DNA of 64,000 nucleotides from assembly GCF_000147355.1 (NCBI RefSeq), contig NC_014506.1, positions 310,001 to 374,000 of the forward strand, given 5' to 3'. How positions within the stretch are numbered: position 1 is the first letter of the stretch; the number at the start of each line of letters is the position of its first letter. A program made the position numbers and the translations under genes. Of the stretch, positions 37,703 to 42,053 are shown one piece after another. This stretch comes from Sulfurimonas autotrophica DSM 16294 (GTDB lineage: Bacteria > Campylobacterota > Campylobacteria > Campylobacterales > Sulfurimonadaceae). The notes under the pieces are model-generated. The model did no database searches, had not been told where the DNA came from, and worked only from the letters and a program-made list of their open reading frames with translations.

Positions 37703-38167
37703 ATGAATTTAATTGAAGGTAAATTAAAAGTAGTAAACGGCAAAAAAATAGCCATAGTAAGCACAAGATGGAACCATTTTATAGTGGATAGACTTGTAGA
37801 GGGAGCAAAAGATGCCTTTGACCGTCACGGCGGAAATGCAGAGGATTTGACACATGTTTTAGTTCCGGGTGCATTTGAGCTGCCTATGATTGTCGACCAG
37901 CTTTTGGCAAGCGGAAAATATGATGCAATTTGTGCTTTGGGGGCTGTTATCCGTGGTTCAACACCTCATTTTGATTATGTTGCGGCTGAAGCGACAAAAG
38001 GCATAGCAAGTATGAGCCTCAAATATCAAAAACCTGTAAGTTTCGGACTTTTAACAACCGATACAATTGAGCAGGCGATAGAGAGAGCCGGAACAAAAGC
38101 CGGAAACAAAGGTTTTGAAGCAATGGGCGTTGTTATAGAAATGCTAGATTTATACGAGGCACTGTAA
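37703..38167 (+). CDS. ribH: 6,7-dimethyl-8-ribityllumazine synthase
   Basis: Penultimate riboflavin enzyme, forming a 60-mer or pentamer. The protein starts [13 protein letters not shown], has the substrate loop [10 protein letters not shown] and the phosphate/active-site region [22 protein letters not shown] prefer ATG 37703 over ATG 37697, because AGGA lies 8-9 bp upstream of 37703 but only 3 bp from 37697. Its stop overlaps the nusB start by 1 bp. Confidence 0.95.
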
Positions 38168-38574
38168 TGGCTACTCGTCAGCAGGCACGTATGGCCGTAG
38201 TAAGCCTTTTATACGCATATGATTTGGGAAACGGCAACACGTCTGAGCATTCAAATGAGATTCTTGAAGAAAAGAAAATCCGTAACAAACAAAAAGATTT
38301 TGCTCTTGGACTCTATGAAGGTGTTATGGAGCATATAGAAGAAATTGACAAAGCGATAGTTGAGCATTTAAAAGAGTGGGATTTTGAACGTTTGGGTGCA
38401 ATTGAGCGTGCAACATTAAGACTTGCAACGTATGAAATTCTTTTTGGGGAACTTGATTCTGCGGTTGTTATTAATGAAGCAGTTGAAATTACAAAATCAT
38501 TTGGAACAGAACAGTCTCCTAAATTTATTAACGGTGTTTTGGATGCAATAGCAAAAGATCACAAGGCAAAATAA
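38167..38574 (+). CDS. nusB: Transcription antitermination factor NusB
   Basis: A 135-residue all-helical RNA-binding protein acting with NusE at boxA in rRNA antitermination. The start [19 protein letters not shown] and the central DFERLGAIERATLRLATYEI, followed by VVINEAVEITKSFG, are diagnostic. The start codon overlaps the ribH stop (TAATG) and the cytochrome gene starts immediately after its stop. Confidence 0.95.
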   Translation: MATRQQARMAVVSLLYAYDLGNGNTSEHSNEILEEKKIRNKQKDFALGLYEGVMEHIEEIDKAIVEHLKEWDFERLGAIERATLRLATYEILFGELDSAVVINEAVEITKSFGTEQSPKFINGVLDAIAKDHKAK

Positions 38575-41004
38575 ATGAAGAAAACCCTCTGGCTTACTGT
38601 TTTTTTTGCAACTTTTTTAGTTGCATCAACAAATTATCATGAAAAAAACAATTGTTTAAAATGTCACGGAGGCATTGAGCATATTAGAGCTCCTGAATCC
38701 GGCATGGCAAAAGCGATTGCGAAAAAATCAGCAGAGGCAGGGTATGCAAAAAATAGCTGTATTGTATGTCACGGGGGGAATCCGGCTACAAAACATAAAA
38801 GTAAAGCGCACAAAGGTACTGTACAATACTTTTTGACACACGAAGGACCAAAAGAATTTTACCCGGCACCGGGCAGTACCTGGGTAAACCAAAATACCTG
38901 TGGTATGTGTCACAAAGAAGAAGTTGCTGCGCAGATGAACTCTTTGATGATGACAGAACAGGGAAAAATCCAAGGAGCGCTTTGGAGTTTTGGCGGTAAA
39001 GAAGGGTATAACCATACGATAGGTAATTACAAAACGAAAAATCCTACAGATATACATGCACGTCTTGGTACGAAAAAGTATCAAGAGTATATGCAAAAAC
39101 TCTCAAAGATGGAGCCTCAGGCTTTTCCAAAAGAGATGACCGAGCTACCTCCTGCACCAACAGCAGAAGAAGTTGAAAAAGATCCTTCATTAGCTGTATA
39201 TACCTACTTACGTCAAGAGTGTCTACGTTGTCATACGGGGAGCAAAGGTCGTCAAAAAAGAGGTGATTACCGAGGTATAGGCTGTGCATCTTGTCATATT
39301 CCCTACTCAAATGAGGGCTATTATGAAGGTGGTGATAAAAGCATATCACATAAAGAACGGGGTCACCTGCTCGTACATGAGATTCAATCATCCCGTGAAA
39401 CAAAAGTTACGGTGCATAAGCAGAGTTATTCGGGTATTCCGACTGAGACATGTTCAACTTGCCATAACCGAGGAAAACGTATAGGTGTTTCTTATCAGGG
39501 CTTGATGGAAACGGCTTATAAAGCAACTTTTGATGCGAAGGGTAATCCTCAGCCAAAACTTCATACTAAACGATATATTCATATGCAGGGCGATGTTCAC
39601 TTTAAAAAAGGCATGTTGTGTCAAGACTGTCATACGTCTAATGATATGCATGGAGATGGTTTTTTAAGCGGAGCAAATGCAGGTGCAGTTGAAATAGAGT
39701 GTCAGGATTGTCACGGAACAACAAAAAAGTATCCATGGGAATTGCCACTTGGCTACAGTGATGAGTTTGAAACATCTCCAAAAACAGGCAAAGCCAGAGG
39801 CGTGACAAAAACTATGGCAGAGTACCTCAAGCAAGGAAGCGTAAATGCCGCAGATGAAGGTTATTTACTCTCGGCCAGAGGCAATCCTCTCATACATACA
39901 ACAAAAAAAGGCAAAGAAGTCATTATGCATTTGGCAAGCGGTAAAGATGTTGTCCTTAAACCGCTTAAACTGCTTAAAGAACAGGAAAAACTTTCTAAAG
40001 TCGGGTTGTTGGCTATGGATAAAATCAGTGTTCATAATGACAGATTGGAGTGTTATACCTGTCATGCAACTTGGGCTCCGCAGTGTTACGGTTGTCATGT
40101 CAAAATAGACTACAGCGGCGGCAAACAAAACCCTGATTATCTGCAGTCTTCCCATGACCATGATATGCATGGTCGTACTGGCATAATGAGAAAATCATTG
40201 AAAAAATATCTGGTTGATGGACAAGTAACTGAAACAAGAAGTTTTCTGCGCTGGGAAGATCCTGCTCTTTCTCAAAACGGAGAAGGGCGAATAAGCCCGA
40301 CAATTCCGGGATGTCAGACAACTGTTACAGTTATAGGCAAAGACGGAAATGCACTGCTTCAAAATCATATATTTAAAATACCGAACGTTGAGGGTGCAGG
40401 AGCCGAGGGACAAAATGCTATAGATATGGCACCGATTCAGCCGCATACAATTCAAAAAGAACCGAGAAGCTGTGAGAGTTGTCATGCTATGAAAAAAGCG
40501 TTGGGTTATGGTATCACAGGTTCACAAACGACTTTTGACCCCTCAGTTGATACTATAGTAGATATTATGAGTGCTGATGGAAAGGTTATGCCGACCATTA
40601 TAGATGAGCAGATTCCGGCGATTCCTAATCTACATTTTGATTATTCAAAATTTTTAGACAAAAACGGAACACAGTTGCAGACTGTAGGACATCATTGGAA
40701 ACTCTCACAACCTTTAACAAAGGCACAAATTGATAAAACGGACAGAGCAGGTGCCTGTGTGGCTTGTCATGAAAGTATACCCGAAGGCAATCTGGCAGTT
40801 TCAGCTATGACACATATTGCAGAGATGGCAAATATGAAGATTGACAAAAAAAAGCATATGGGCATTTTAAATAAAATATTAAATCTTGCTGCATGGGTTC
40901 AGGTGCTTGTGGGCATATTTATAGGTATGCTTGGTATGTATATTTTTTATAGACTCTTTATTAAAAAGAAATCTATTAGTTCAAGAAATAGAGGATGGAA
41001 ATGA
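38575..41004 (+). CDS. Membrane-anchored dodecahaem cytochrome c
   Basis: An 809-residue exported protein: signal peptide (MKKTLWLTVFFATFLVAS), a large periplasmic part and one C-terminal TM anchor (about 775-797) with a basic tail. I count twelve CxxCH motifs: CLKCH, CIVCH, CGMCH, CLRCH, CASCH, CSTCH, CQDCH twice, CYTCH, CYGCH, CESCH and CVACH. No CxxCK or CX15CH variant is present, which argues against NrfA- or MccA-type catalysis. The spacing of haems 1-5 and 6-10 looks like two modules with a haem-poor insert between haems 8 and 9. It sits between nusB and mqnC, with 0 and 4 bp spacing. A quinol-linked electron conduit is plausible; the partner is unknown and no family name is secure. Confidence 0.85.
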   Translation: MKKTLWLTVFFATFLVASTNYHEKNNCLKCHGGIEHIRAPESGMAKAIAKKSAEAGYAKNSCIVCHGGNPATKHKSKAHKGTVQYFLTHEGPKEFYPAPGSTWVNQNTCGMCHKEEVAAQMNSLMMTEQGKIQGALWSFGGKEGYNHTIGNYKTKNPTDIHARLGTKKYQEYMQKLSKMEPQAFPKEMTELPPAPTAEEVEKDPSLAVYTYLRQECLRCHTGSKGRQKRGDYRGIGCASCHIPYSNEGYYEGGDKSISHKERGHLLVHEIQSSRETKVTVHKQSYSGIPTETCSTCHNRGKRIGVSYQGLMETAYKATFDAKGNPQPKLHTKRYIHMQGDVHFKKGMLCQDCHTSNDMHGDGFLSGANAGAVEIECQDCHGTTKKYPWELPLGYSDEFETSPKTGKARGVTKTMAEYLKQGSVNAADEGYLLSARGNPLIHTTKKGKEVIMHLASGKDVVLKPLKLLKEQEKLSKVGLLAMDKISVHNDRLECYTCHATWAPQCYGCHVKIDYSGGKQNPDYLQSSHDHDMHGRTGIMRKSLKKYLVDGQVTETRSFLRWEDPALSQNGEGRISPTIPGCQTTVTVIGKDGNALLQNHIFKIPNVEGAGAEGQNAIDMAPIQPHTIQKEPRSCESCHAMKKALGYGITGSQTTFDPSVDTIVDIMSADGKVMPTIIDEQIPAIPNLHFDYSKFLDKNGTQLQTVGHHWKLSQPLTKAQIDKTDRAGACVACHESIPEGNLAVSAMTHIAEMANMKIDKKKHMGILNKILNLAAWVQVLVGIFIGMLGMYIFYRLFIKKKSISSRNRGWK

Positions 41005-42053
41005 GCAGACTAACTAAAGAAGAAGCACTTGATTTAATCCGCAATGCGGATTTGAAAGATTTAGGACGTATGGCAACACAAAGAAAAAAAGAGTTGCACC
41101 CCAAAGGAATTACGACCTTTGTAATAGACAGAAACATTAACTATACAAATATATGCTGGGTTGACTGCAAGTTTTGTGCATTTTACAGACATGAAAAAGA
41201 TGCGGATGCTTATGTTTTGACTTTTGATGAGATAGATGCAAAGATAGACGAACTGCTGGAAATTGGCGGAACGCAGATACTCTTTCAAGGCGGTGTGCAT
41301 CCAAAACTCAAAATTGAGTGGTATGAGGATTTAGTAGAGCATATACATCAAAAATATCCGACAATCACCATTCATGGATTCAGCTCGATAGAGCTGGATT
41401 TTATAGCCAAAGTTTCCCGCATAACAATTCAAGAAGTGCTGGCACGCTTAAAAGCAAAAGGACTGGCATCCATTCCCGGTGCAGGAGCTGAGATACTTTC
41501 AGACAAAGTCCGTGATATTATAGCACCCAAAAAGATAGATTCCGAGGTATGGATAGATGTGCATCGTCAAGCACATAAACTCGACATTATGTCTACGGCT
41601 ACTATGATGTACGGTACGGTAGAAACAGATGAAGACATTATAGACCATTTGGATATGGTGAGAAATCTGCAGGATGAAACAGGCGGATTTCGTGCATTTA
41701 TCATGTGGAGCTTTCAGGGAAAAAATACGGAGCTTTTAGCACGCATTCCCGATATGGAAAAGCCGTCATCAAACCGTTACTTAAGACTTTTGGCAGTAGC
41801 TCGTTTGTATCTTGACAATGTGCCTAACATTCAAAGTTCATGGGTAACACAGGGACCTTATATCGGTCAGATGGCACTGCGTTTCGGTGCAAATGATTTG
41901 GGCTCGACCATGATGGAAGAAAATGTCGTAAGCTCTGCAGGTGCCGCGTACACAATGGCAAAAGATGAAATGGTGCATCTTATAAAAGATATAGGTGAAA
42001 CACCGGCTGTGAGAAATACAGCCTATGAGACTTTAGAGATATTTAACTCATGA
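41001..42053 (+). CDS. mqnC: Cyclic dehypoxanthinyl futalosine synthase MqnC
   Basis: A radical SAM enzyme of the futalosine menaquinone pathway that cyclises dehypoxanthine futalosine. The cluster motif is CWVDCKFC (Cys52, 56, 59), preceded by FVIDRNINYTNI and followed by GGTQILFQGGVHP. I use ATG 41001, which overlaps the cytochrome stop (ATGA) and has AGAGGA 5 bp upstream; ATG 40995 is too close to that site. It overlaps the M16-like gene by 4 bp, so the three are one operon. Menaquinone synthesis next to a quinol-linked cytochrome is a sensible pairing. Confidence 0.95.
   Translation: MSRLTKEEALDLIRNADLKDLGRMATQRKKELHPKGITTFVIDRNINYTNICWVDCKFCAFYRHEKDADAYVLTFDEIDAKIDELLEIGGTQILFQGGVHPKLKIEWYEDLVEHIHQKYPTITIHGFSSIELDFIAKVSRITIQEVLARLKAKGLASIPGAGAEILSDKVRDIIAPKKIDSEVWIDVHRQAHKLDIMSTATMMYGTVETDEDIIDHLDMVRNLQDETGGFRAFIMWSFQGKNTELLARIPDMEKPSSNRYLRLLAVARLYLDNVPNIQSSWVTQGPYIGQMALRFGANDLGSTMMEENVVSSAGAAYTMAKDEMVHLIKDIGETPAVRNTAYETLEIFNS

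Follow-up and report, generated by a model that had tools for sequence, protein, structure and literature searches.

A coupled three-cysteine unit marks a candidate reaction centre in an anchored, ExtM-like multihaem cytochrome of Sulfurimonas autotrophica

The window analysed here, a 64,000-nucleotide stretch of the Sulfurimonas autotrophica DSM 16294 genome (NC_014506.1, positions 310,001 to 374,000), encodes at 38575..41004 an 809-residue protein that carries twelve CxxCH haem motifs, ends in a hydrophobic anchor and is placed by profile searches among relatives of ExtM; coordinates are window positions and all features lie on the plus strand. We found that the tenth motif, C504-Y-G-C507-H508 (CYGCH; 40084..40098), and C580 (40312..40314), the sole cysteine outside a CxxCH motif, are lost together among relatives and that the three-cysteine unit is absent from all shortened copies of the gene. 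That motif 10 and C580 change as one coupled unit is well supported by the alignments. We tentatively propose that the protein is an ExtM-superfamily periplasmic multihaem oxidoreductase, tied to the inner membrane, in which motif 10 and C580 would form a centre that handles inorganic sulfur or selenium species.

The gene is an intact open reading frame with an ATG start, and its CxxCH motifs begin at residues 27, 62, 109, 216, 237, 293, 349, 376, 493, 504, 633 and 728. They hold 24 of the 25 cysteines, C580 being the remaining one, and from them we infer twelve haems; in 20,000 shuffles of the protein, CxxCH occurred 0.04 times on average and at most twice. The first-pass annotation of this DNA had described a gene with twelve such motifs and a C-terminal membrane helix, placed without spacing between nusB and mqnC, and the reading frame and cysteine inventory bear this out.

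The scan of relatives covers the best 80 of 434 confirmed matches, the groups B, C and ExtM-like described below were sampled within Campylobacterota, and identical sequences were counted once. In an alignment of 157 rows, 131 carry the pair of motif 10 and C580, 19 carry neither, one is discordant and six do not cover both positions; in Campylobacterota rows motif 10 is lost only jointly with C580. A second alignment, A3, holds 117 of 133 representatives. The 16 omitted are ExtN-like and were checked by motif (none has the unit), and rows with fewer than seven motifs or more than 1000 residues, the discordant row included, were dropped beforehand. In A3, motif 10 and C580 correlate at 1.00, with 106 positives and 11 negatives, and the histidine column that best correlates with motif 10 (among columns of at least 60% occupancy) is H330, at 0.56. 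Moreover, CYGCH and GCQ are present in 14 of 14 Campylobacterota ExtM-like rows and absent from 16 of 16 ExtN-like rows.

The full-length sequence L030 (genome G025) shows the unit changing almost by itself. Among the 62 columns invariant in the 106 positives, exactly C504R, C507R and C580Y are changed, one set of three in 37,820 possible; among the 190 columns invariant in the 76 positives of the anchored group A, six differ, namely the three cysteines, D254G and a small deletion at 329-330. A tree of 66 of the 157 rows, built by a quick method and with long branches that meet, has six changes of each trait with 6 of 6 contrasts concordant (p = 0.031), although the six could be five because the placement of the 7-motif forms is unsure. 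At the chromosomal slot between nusB and mqnC, the unit is found in 31 of 32 full-length Sulfurimonas copies versus none of 11 shortened ones (Fisher p = 2e-9, a value that ignores relatedness). Other columns are also lost among the 11 negatives of A3: R299 in 8, E312 in 8, E553 in 9 and R555 in 10, of which the two arginines would suit an anionic substrate.

Structure prediction from the 117 rows of A3 gave a haem-free model with a pLDDT of 89.9 and a pTM of 0.85, whereas a 20-row alignment, A1, gave a pLDDT of only 35.4. Motif 10 and C580 lie in a predicted beta-strand domain (residues 501-619; 40075..40431) composed of strands E501-512, E518-520, E546-548, E550-561, E564-567, E573-578, E582-587, E593-598 and E613-619 with short helices between them, and C580 is found in the turn between E573-578 and E582-587. 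The best fold match is the octahaem tetrathionate reductase 1sp3 (Z 6.1 over 277 residues, rmsd 4.9, 18% identity), the only chain with Z above 5 among 92 solved chains aligned. Seven VIA chains reach a Z of at least 2, and the five entries among the matches listed are 1sp3, three viral fusion proteins and MscS.

In the proposed reading, the C-terminal helix would tie a periplasmic multihaem oxidoreductase to the inner membrane and the reaction centre would consist of C504, C507, H508 and C580 in the beta-strand domain. As the other conserved cysteines are all in haem motifs, the simplest interpretation places a haem at motif 10, with C580 as its distal partner; the likeliest form would be a haem c with C580 either as sixth ligand or as an active-site thiol on the distal side. 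Such a centre might catalyse the interconversion of an inorganic sulfur, or selenium, species (thiosulfate, polythionate, selenite) via the cysteine, by analogy with TsdA, in which a cysteine ligand of the active-site haem is described as carrying the substrate (PMC4423706). The remaining haems would pass electrons, in a presumed direction, between the centre and the membrane or a periplasmic carrier. A wider claim, possible but in our view rather doubtful, is that the anchored family, group B and the ExtM-like proteins make up a new class of multihaem enzyme, with a centre of CYGCH and a distant cysteine in a beta domain (a cysteine-ligated haem or Cys3His) for sulfur or selenium oxyanions, and that Sulfurimonas loses this centre, then haems, then the gene, all at one address.

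Several observations weigh against the proposed haem centre and its sulfur chemistry. Motif 10 is inside the 12-residue strand E501-512 (pLDDT ~92), unlike the other eleven, which are in helices, turns or coil, and this beta-strand setting, as modelled, would be awkward for a normal haem c. Of the 11 forms that lack the cysteines, 10 still have Y505 and 9 still have G506, so the backbone can do without the motif-10 cysteines; H508 is retained in 2 of them. R299, E312, E553 and R555 are unchanged in L030. The discordant row, a Sphingobium plasmid protein (~25% identity, weakly aligned), has CGGCH without C580, and several of the six tree contrasts depend on long branches. The Z of 6.1 to 1sp3 falls in a range that possibly reflects a common arrangement only, and Foldseek found no match in the PDB at E 0.001. 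The PhsA-like, DUF302 and sulfide-dehydrogenase links set out below belong to relatives and not to this gene's own neighbours. Finally, the nusB-mqnC slot is empty in genome G368, which we take to be that of the thiosulfate oxidiser S. denitrificans; the empty slot makes the cytochrome gene dispensable in the genus and, if that identity is right, the gene is not part of core sulfur oxidation.

The strand setting of motif 10, unlike that of the other eleven, and the retention of Y505 and G506 without the cysteines make a haem-free motif 10 a serious rival, one that we nonetheless judge unlikely. Here C504, C507, C580 and H508 would make up a Cys3His metal site, or else a disulfide plus a free thiol, in a protein with eleven haems, and the site may still be the reaction centre. 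The loss of all three cysteines from L030 while H508 stays agrees with this. On the other side, H508 is present in all 106 positives of A3, which makes motif 10 a perfect CxxCH, and haem attachment systems are reported to recognise CxxCH by motif (PMC7096707); the model that places motif 10 in a strand was, moreover, built without haem. Under either the haem or the Cys3His reading, motif 10 and C580 would be the special part of the molecule.

The remainder of the protein would be a periplasmic wire with an anchor. The N-terminus resembles a signal peptide (residues ~1-18; 38575..38628), predicted from a hydrophobic window and a model helix at 2-17. Motifs 1-9 (residues 27-497; 38653..40065), which the model places in helices, turns or coil, would form the haem wire; motif 11 (residues 633-637; 40471..40485) is invariant in A3 and motif 12 (residues 728-732; 40756..40770) is missing from group C. 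Hydropathy and the model both indicate a C-terminal membrane helix (residues 758-796; 40846..40962), in which the best 19-residue hydrophobic window begins at 768, followed by the basic tail KKKSISSRNRGWK. Given the putative signal peptide and the basic tail beyond the helix, the body is likely periplasmic and the tail cytoplasmic.

A quinol-linked role is possible, given the anchor, and the first-pass annotation had taken the menaquinone-synthesis gene next door to suggest a quinol-oxidising electron hub. A pure relay of this kind, a quinol-linked periplasmic wire without chemistry of its own, is one that we consider improbable on balance. The C-terminal anchor would suit it, as would the weak similarity to NrfH (26.5 bits against a cut-off of 134.2), and all 11 shortened copies keep the C-terminal hydrophobic helix and the address, so that a wire-only form may still be useful. 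A wire, however, has no need of a motif coupled to one cysteine, and 31 of 32 full-length copies keep both. The adjacency of mqnC is uninformative: with the slot empty in 19 and DUF302-only in 7 of 85 Sulfurimonas genomes, and neither nusB nor mqnC beside the gene in 30 of 80 relatives, mqnC is a neighbour by address and not evidence of quinol oxidation, and the argument from menaquinone synthesis falls.

The slot itself is bounded upstream by nusB (38167..38574), a conserved neighbour whose stop is followed immediately by the cytochrome ATG, and downstream by mqnC (40995..42053), whose start overlaps the cytochrome gene by 10 bases. A match to mqnC is found in 85 of 85 Sulfurimonas genomes, in a few of them as a fragment or a 37-40% identical paralogue only. 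The neighbour names kdsA, ribH, nusB, mqnC and recD are presumptive, read from the sequence. Across 85 Sulfurimonas genomes of at least 90% completeness, the slot holds a full-length cytochrome gene in 32, a shortened or remnant copy in 11, a DUF302 gene only in 7, fewer than 100 bases in 19 (empty) and, in 3, other genes or a wider gap; in 10 genomes the locus ends before nusB and a further 3 are not covered. Where the cytochrome is missing, nusB and mqnC mostly close up. The loss of haem motifs in close relatives, which the first-pass annotation had named as a finding that would speak against it, does occur at this address: ten motifs remain in seven of the shortened copies, seven in three and one in one. 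Intact, point-lost, shortened and empty slots together suggest an order, undated, in which the cysteines are lost first, then haems and length, and then the gene.

Individual broken copies were also seen. One is split over two reading frames (L099:968-3351), another is a partial second copy in pieces (L169:8650-9478), and a remnant (L170:5408-5833) is down to its last 141 residues, which include one motif and the anchor.

Among the best 80 named relatives, nusB and/or mqnC is beside the gene in 50 and neither in 30, the latter an upper limit as some contigs are short. These 30 loci include 13 from Sulfurovum or Sulfurovaceae, one from Sulfurimonas (L113) and two from Bacteroidetes or Bacteroidales bins, and most of the others are named loosely (Campylobacterales, Campylobacteraceae). 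Neighbours at 36 loci without the slot genes are varied, the commonest cluster being response regulators, at 8 loci.

At E 0.001, 60 of 397 sampled Campylobacterota genomes (at least 90% complete) have a match, all sets together; in the S. autotrophica genome the cytochrome gene is the only match to its own sequence and also the only one to the ExtM profile. Four sets can be told apart. Group A is anchored and has 12 motifs, in records named Sulfurimonas, Sulfurovum and relatives; group B is unanchored, with 12 motifs and ~43-46% identity to the 809-residue protein over aligned parts; group C is unanchored, with 10 motifs and 38-40% identity; and the ExtM-like set comprises proteins of 581-612 residues with 12 motifs and 22-27% identity, whose genes adjoin ExtN-like genes with 8 or 10 motifs. 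Because genome G371 carries a group B gene as well as an ExtM/ExtN-like pair, the two sets cannot be the same gene differently named. By hydropathy, all 77 group A rows of A3 have a C-terminal hydrophobic helix, which is missing from every one of the 16 group B, 4 group C and 14 ExtM-like rows.

The 12 group B loci (L159, L160, L165, L167, L171-L178) have surroundings of their own, in which Pfam families were assigned to members in L160 and L167 and the other genes were placed by clustering with them. Two neighbour genes that cluster with Thioredoxin_2 are found at 10 loci and one at 1, and a response regulator and a kinase are nearby, on either strand, at 9. A monohaem cytochrome-like gene occurs at 6 of the 12 and a second thioredoxin type at 5.

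More distant matches were found elsewhere. A plasmid search returned 13 Sphingobium or Sphingopyxis records that align with roughly a quarter of the protein at 26-30% identity. The plasmid pMSHV of Sphingobium herbicidovorans, typed as conjugative, encodes among several cytochrome genes a 1330-residue multihaem protein with 10 CxxCH motifs (L186:5384-9373), distant kin of the haem 7-10 core. Twelve genomes of one genus code, g30 (L228-L239), give weak matches to a protein of 653-686 residues (E 2e-4 to 8e-4, ~95 profile positions).

The case for sulfur is built from links in these relatives. At L156, genes for NrfD, a molybdoenzyme, an iron-sulfur protein, a Rieske protein and cytochrome b stand upstream of an ExtM/ExtN-like pair, and the molybdoenzyme is closest to the thiosulfate reductase PhsA (480.7 bits, cut-off 694). 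Family searches in these clusters covered L156 and the ExtM of L157; in L157 and L158 the shared gene order is judged from the sizes and N-termini of the genes only, and L158 has an additional gene inserted. The group B locus L160 contains a gene resembling flavocytochrome c sulfide dehydrogenase, and two further members of its cluster are found in L174 and L081. Directly after the cytochrome, 14 of the 32 full-length Sulfurimonas slots have a DUF302 gene, and some sulfur oxidisers are reported to have a DUF302 gene that separates soxA from soxB (PMC5037610). No DUF302 gene follows the S. autotrophica cytochrome, with three weak DUF302 matches elsewhere in that genome. The fold match to the tetrathionate reductase 1sp3 adds one more pointer. 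Each of these links is weak, and together they favour sulfur chemistry over the alternatives.

Some features of these loci stand on their own. The segment L156:1-9000 (and L157 and L158 by gene order) joins an ext-type module to a polysulfide/thiosulfate-reductase-type complex. The slot DUF302 protein (for example L026:3924-4364) has a hydrophobic N-terminus, and its reading frame is much shorter in L080. At 718408-720699 of the S. autotrophica contig (G000:C1; L370:6409-8700), a molybdoenzyme that by eye resembles assimilatory nitrate reductases lies beside an oxidase-like pair; among the matches listed, a molybdoenzyme of that size and score occurs in 26 of 32 full-cytochrome genomes versus 4 of 19 empty-slot genomes, a difference that may come from shared ancestry.

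The fold match to 1sp3 raises another candidate, a reductase of nitrogen oxyanions or hydroxylamine from the NrfA/HAO/octahaem tetrathionate reductase fold group, and NrfA chains, which match weakly and locally at the profile level (E 0.016 at best, across 48 positions, and E 0.09 across motifs 7-8), point the same way. CxxCK and CX15CH sites are, however, both missing, no family cut-off of the group is reached, and NapA, which would supply nitrite, is above its cut-off in 25 of 32 full-gene and 16 of 19 empty-slot genomes among the matches listed; NapA is thus no marker of a full slot, and it and the cytochrome do not go together. We regard such a reductase as quite improbable.

Improbable to a still greater degree is a part in an extracellular electron-transfer conduit of the kind considered for the Geobacter ext cluster. 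The ExtM similarity would be in keeping with it, as would the PF22113 MtrC/MtrF-like domain, whose 42.4 bits exceed the cut-off of 30 at the domain level only. The neighbours, on the other hand, are biosynthetic, with no porin gene seen among them (the rest of the genome was not searched for one), and the C-terminal membrane helix is present in all group A rows.

Motif and family searches gave no clear identity among the familiar candidates. NrfA was set aside as there is no CxxCK and all 24 paired cysteines are in CxxCH, a motif criterion that is not decisive alone, some NrfA proteins presumably using His at the CxxCK position (PMC8840924). MccA was set aside for want of a CX15CH site, its profile matching at E 9.5, and the NrfH/NapC quinol dehydrogenases for a score of 26.5 bits against 134.2 and an anchor retained at the C-terminus instead of the N-terminus. 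Pfam and NCBIfam returned no match to the HAO (up to E 10) or MtrA families, nor any to SoxA or TsdA up to E 10, and the MtrC/OmcA model TIGR03507 is not among the seven NCBIfam matches up to E 10. A single short match in PHROGs is to an entry without functional annotation, and the top PDB sequence-profile match, a c555 trimer at E 1.3e-4 with no single stretch passing, is meaningless here. These results support the first-pass annotation in that the protein lacks the defining features of NrfA and MccA and gives no family match to HAO or MtrA, but it overlooked a distant relative: the best NCBIfam model is ExtM (NF040943; E 1.7e-65), to whose 599 positions two stretches of the protein align, over 5-139 and 139-577. 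The protein is thus no orphan, yet its 221.5 bits are far below the ExtM cut-off of 800, as are the scores of two Campylobacterota ExtM-like proteins from ext-like clusters (277.8 and 274.8 bits).

In the open-access literature that we searched, we found neither this gene nor any cysteine centre in ExtM described. For ExtM-like proteins, the three-cysteine unit is a concrete, testable candidate for the reaction centre, and the intact, point-lost, shortened and empty slots of Sulfurimonas form a ready-made set of natural mutants. Sulfurimonas and Sulfurovum are common in vents and sediments; should the unit act on sulfur compounds, the sulfur cycle there would gain one more enzyme.

Among known systems, NrfA, MccA, MtrC/OmcA and NrfH/NapC share multihaem periplasmic electron transfer with the protein and give weak local matches. 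TsdA and SoxA resemble it in the proposed cysteine-haem chemistry only and would be work-alikes, not relatives. The octahaem tetrathionate reductase of Shewanella (1sp3) is a soluble enzyme with a lysine-ligated active-site haem; it has 8 haems and gives no sequence match up to E 10. ExtN has a homologous haem core (49.7 bits, cut-off 200) and ExtN-like proteins are encoded beside ExtM-like genes, but the 16 ExtN-like rows of Campylobacterota lack CYGCH and GCQ; ExtN is listed among potentially catalytic cytochromes of cable bacteria in an article that also mentions ExtM homologues (PMC11976967). ExtM of Geobacter (GSU2935) is a predicted 12-haem cytochrome of the extHIJKLMNOPQS cluster, in which deletion of another gene, extI, reduced selenite and tellurite reduction; in the passages of that study consulted, extI is the only gene deleted and no role is stated for ExtM (PMC5877670). 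The protein studied here differs from ExtM in its 809 residues against a 599-position profile, in its C-terminal membrane helix and in its biosynthetic neighbours, where ext clusters have ExtN, Rieske and cytochrome b genes alongside. It shares with ExtM a complement of twelve, CxxCH motifs here and predicted haems there, and, judged by its sequence, the gene is an anchored variant of the ExtM kind.

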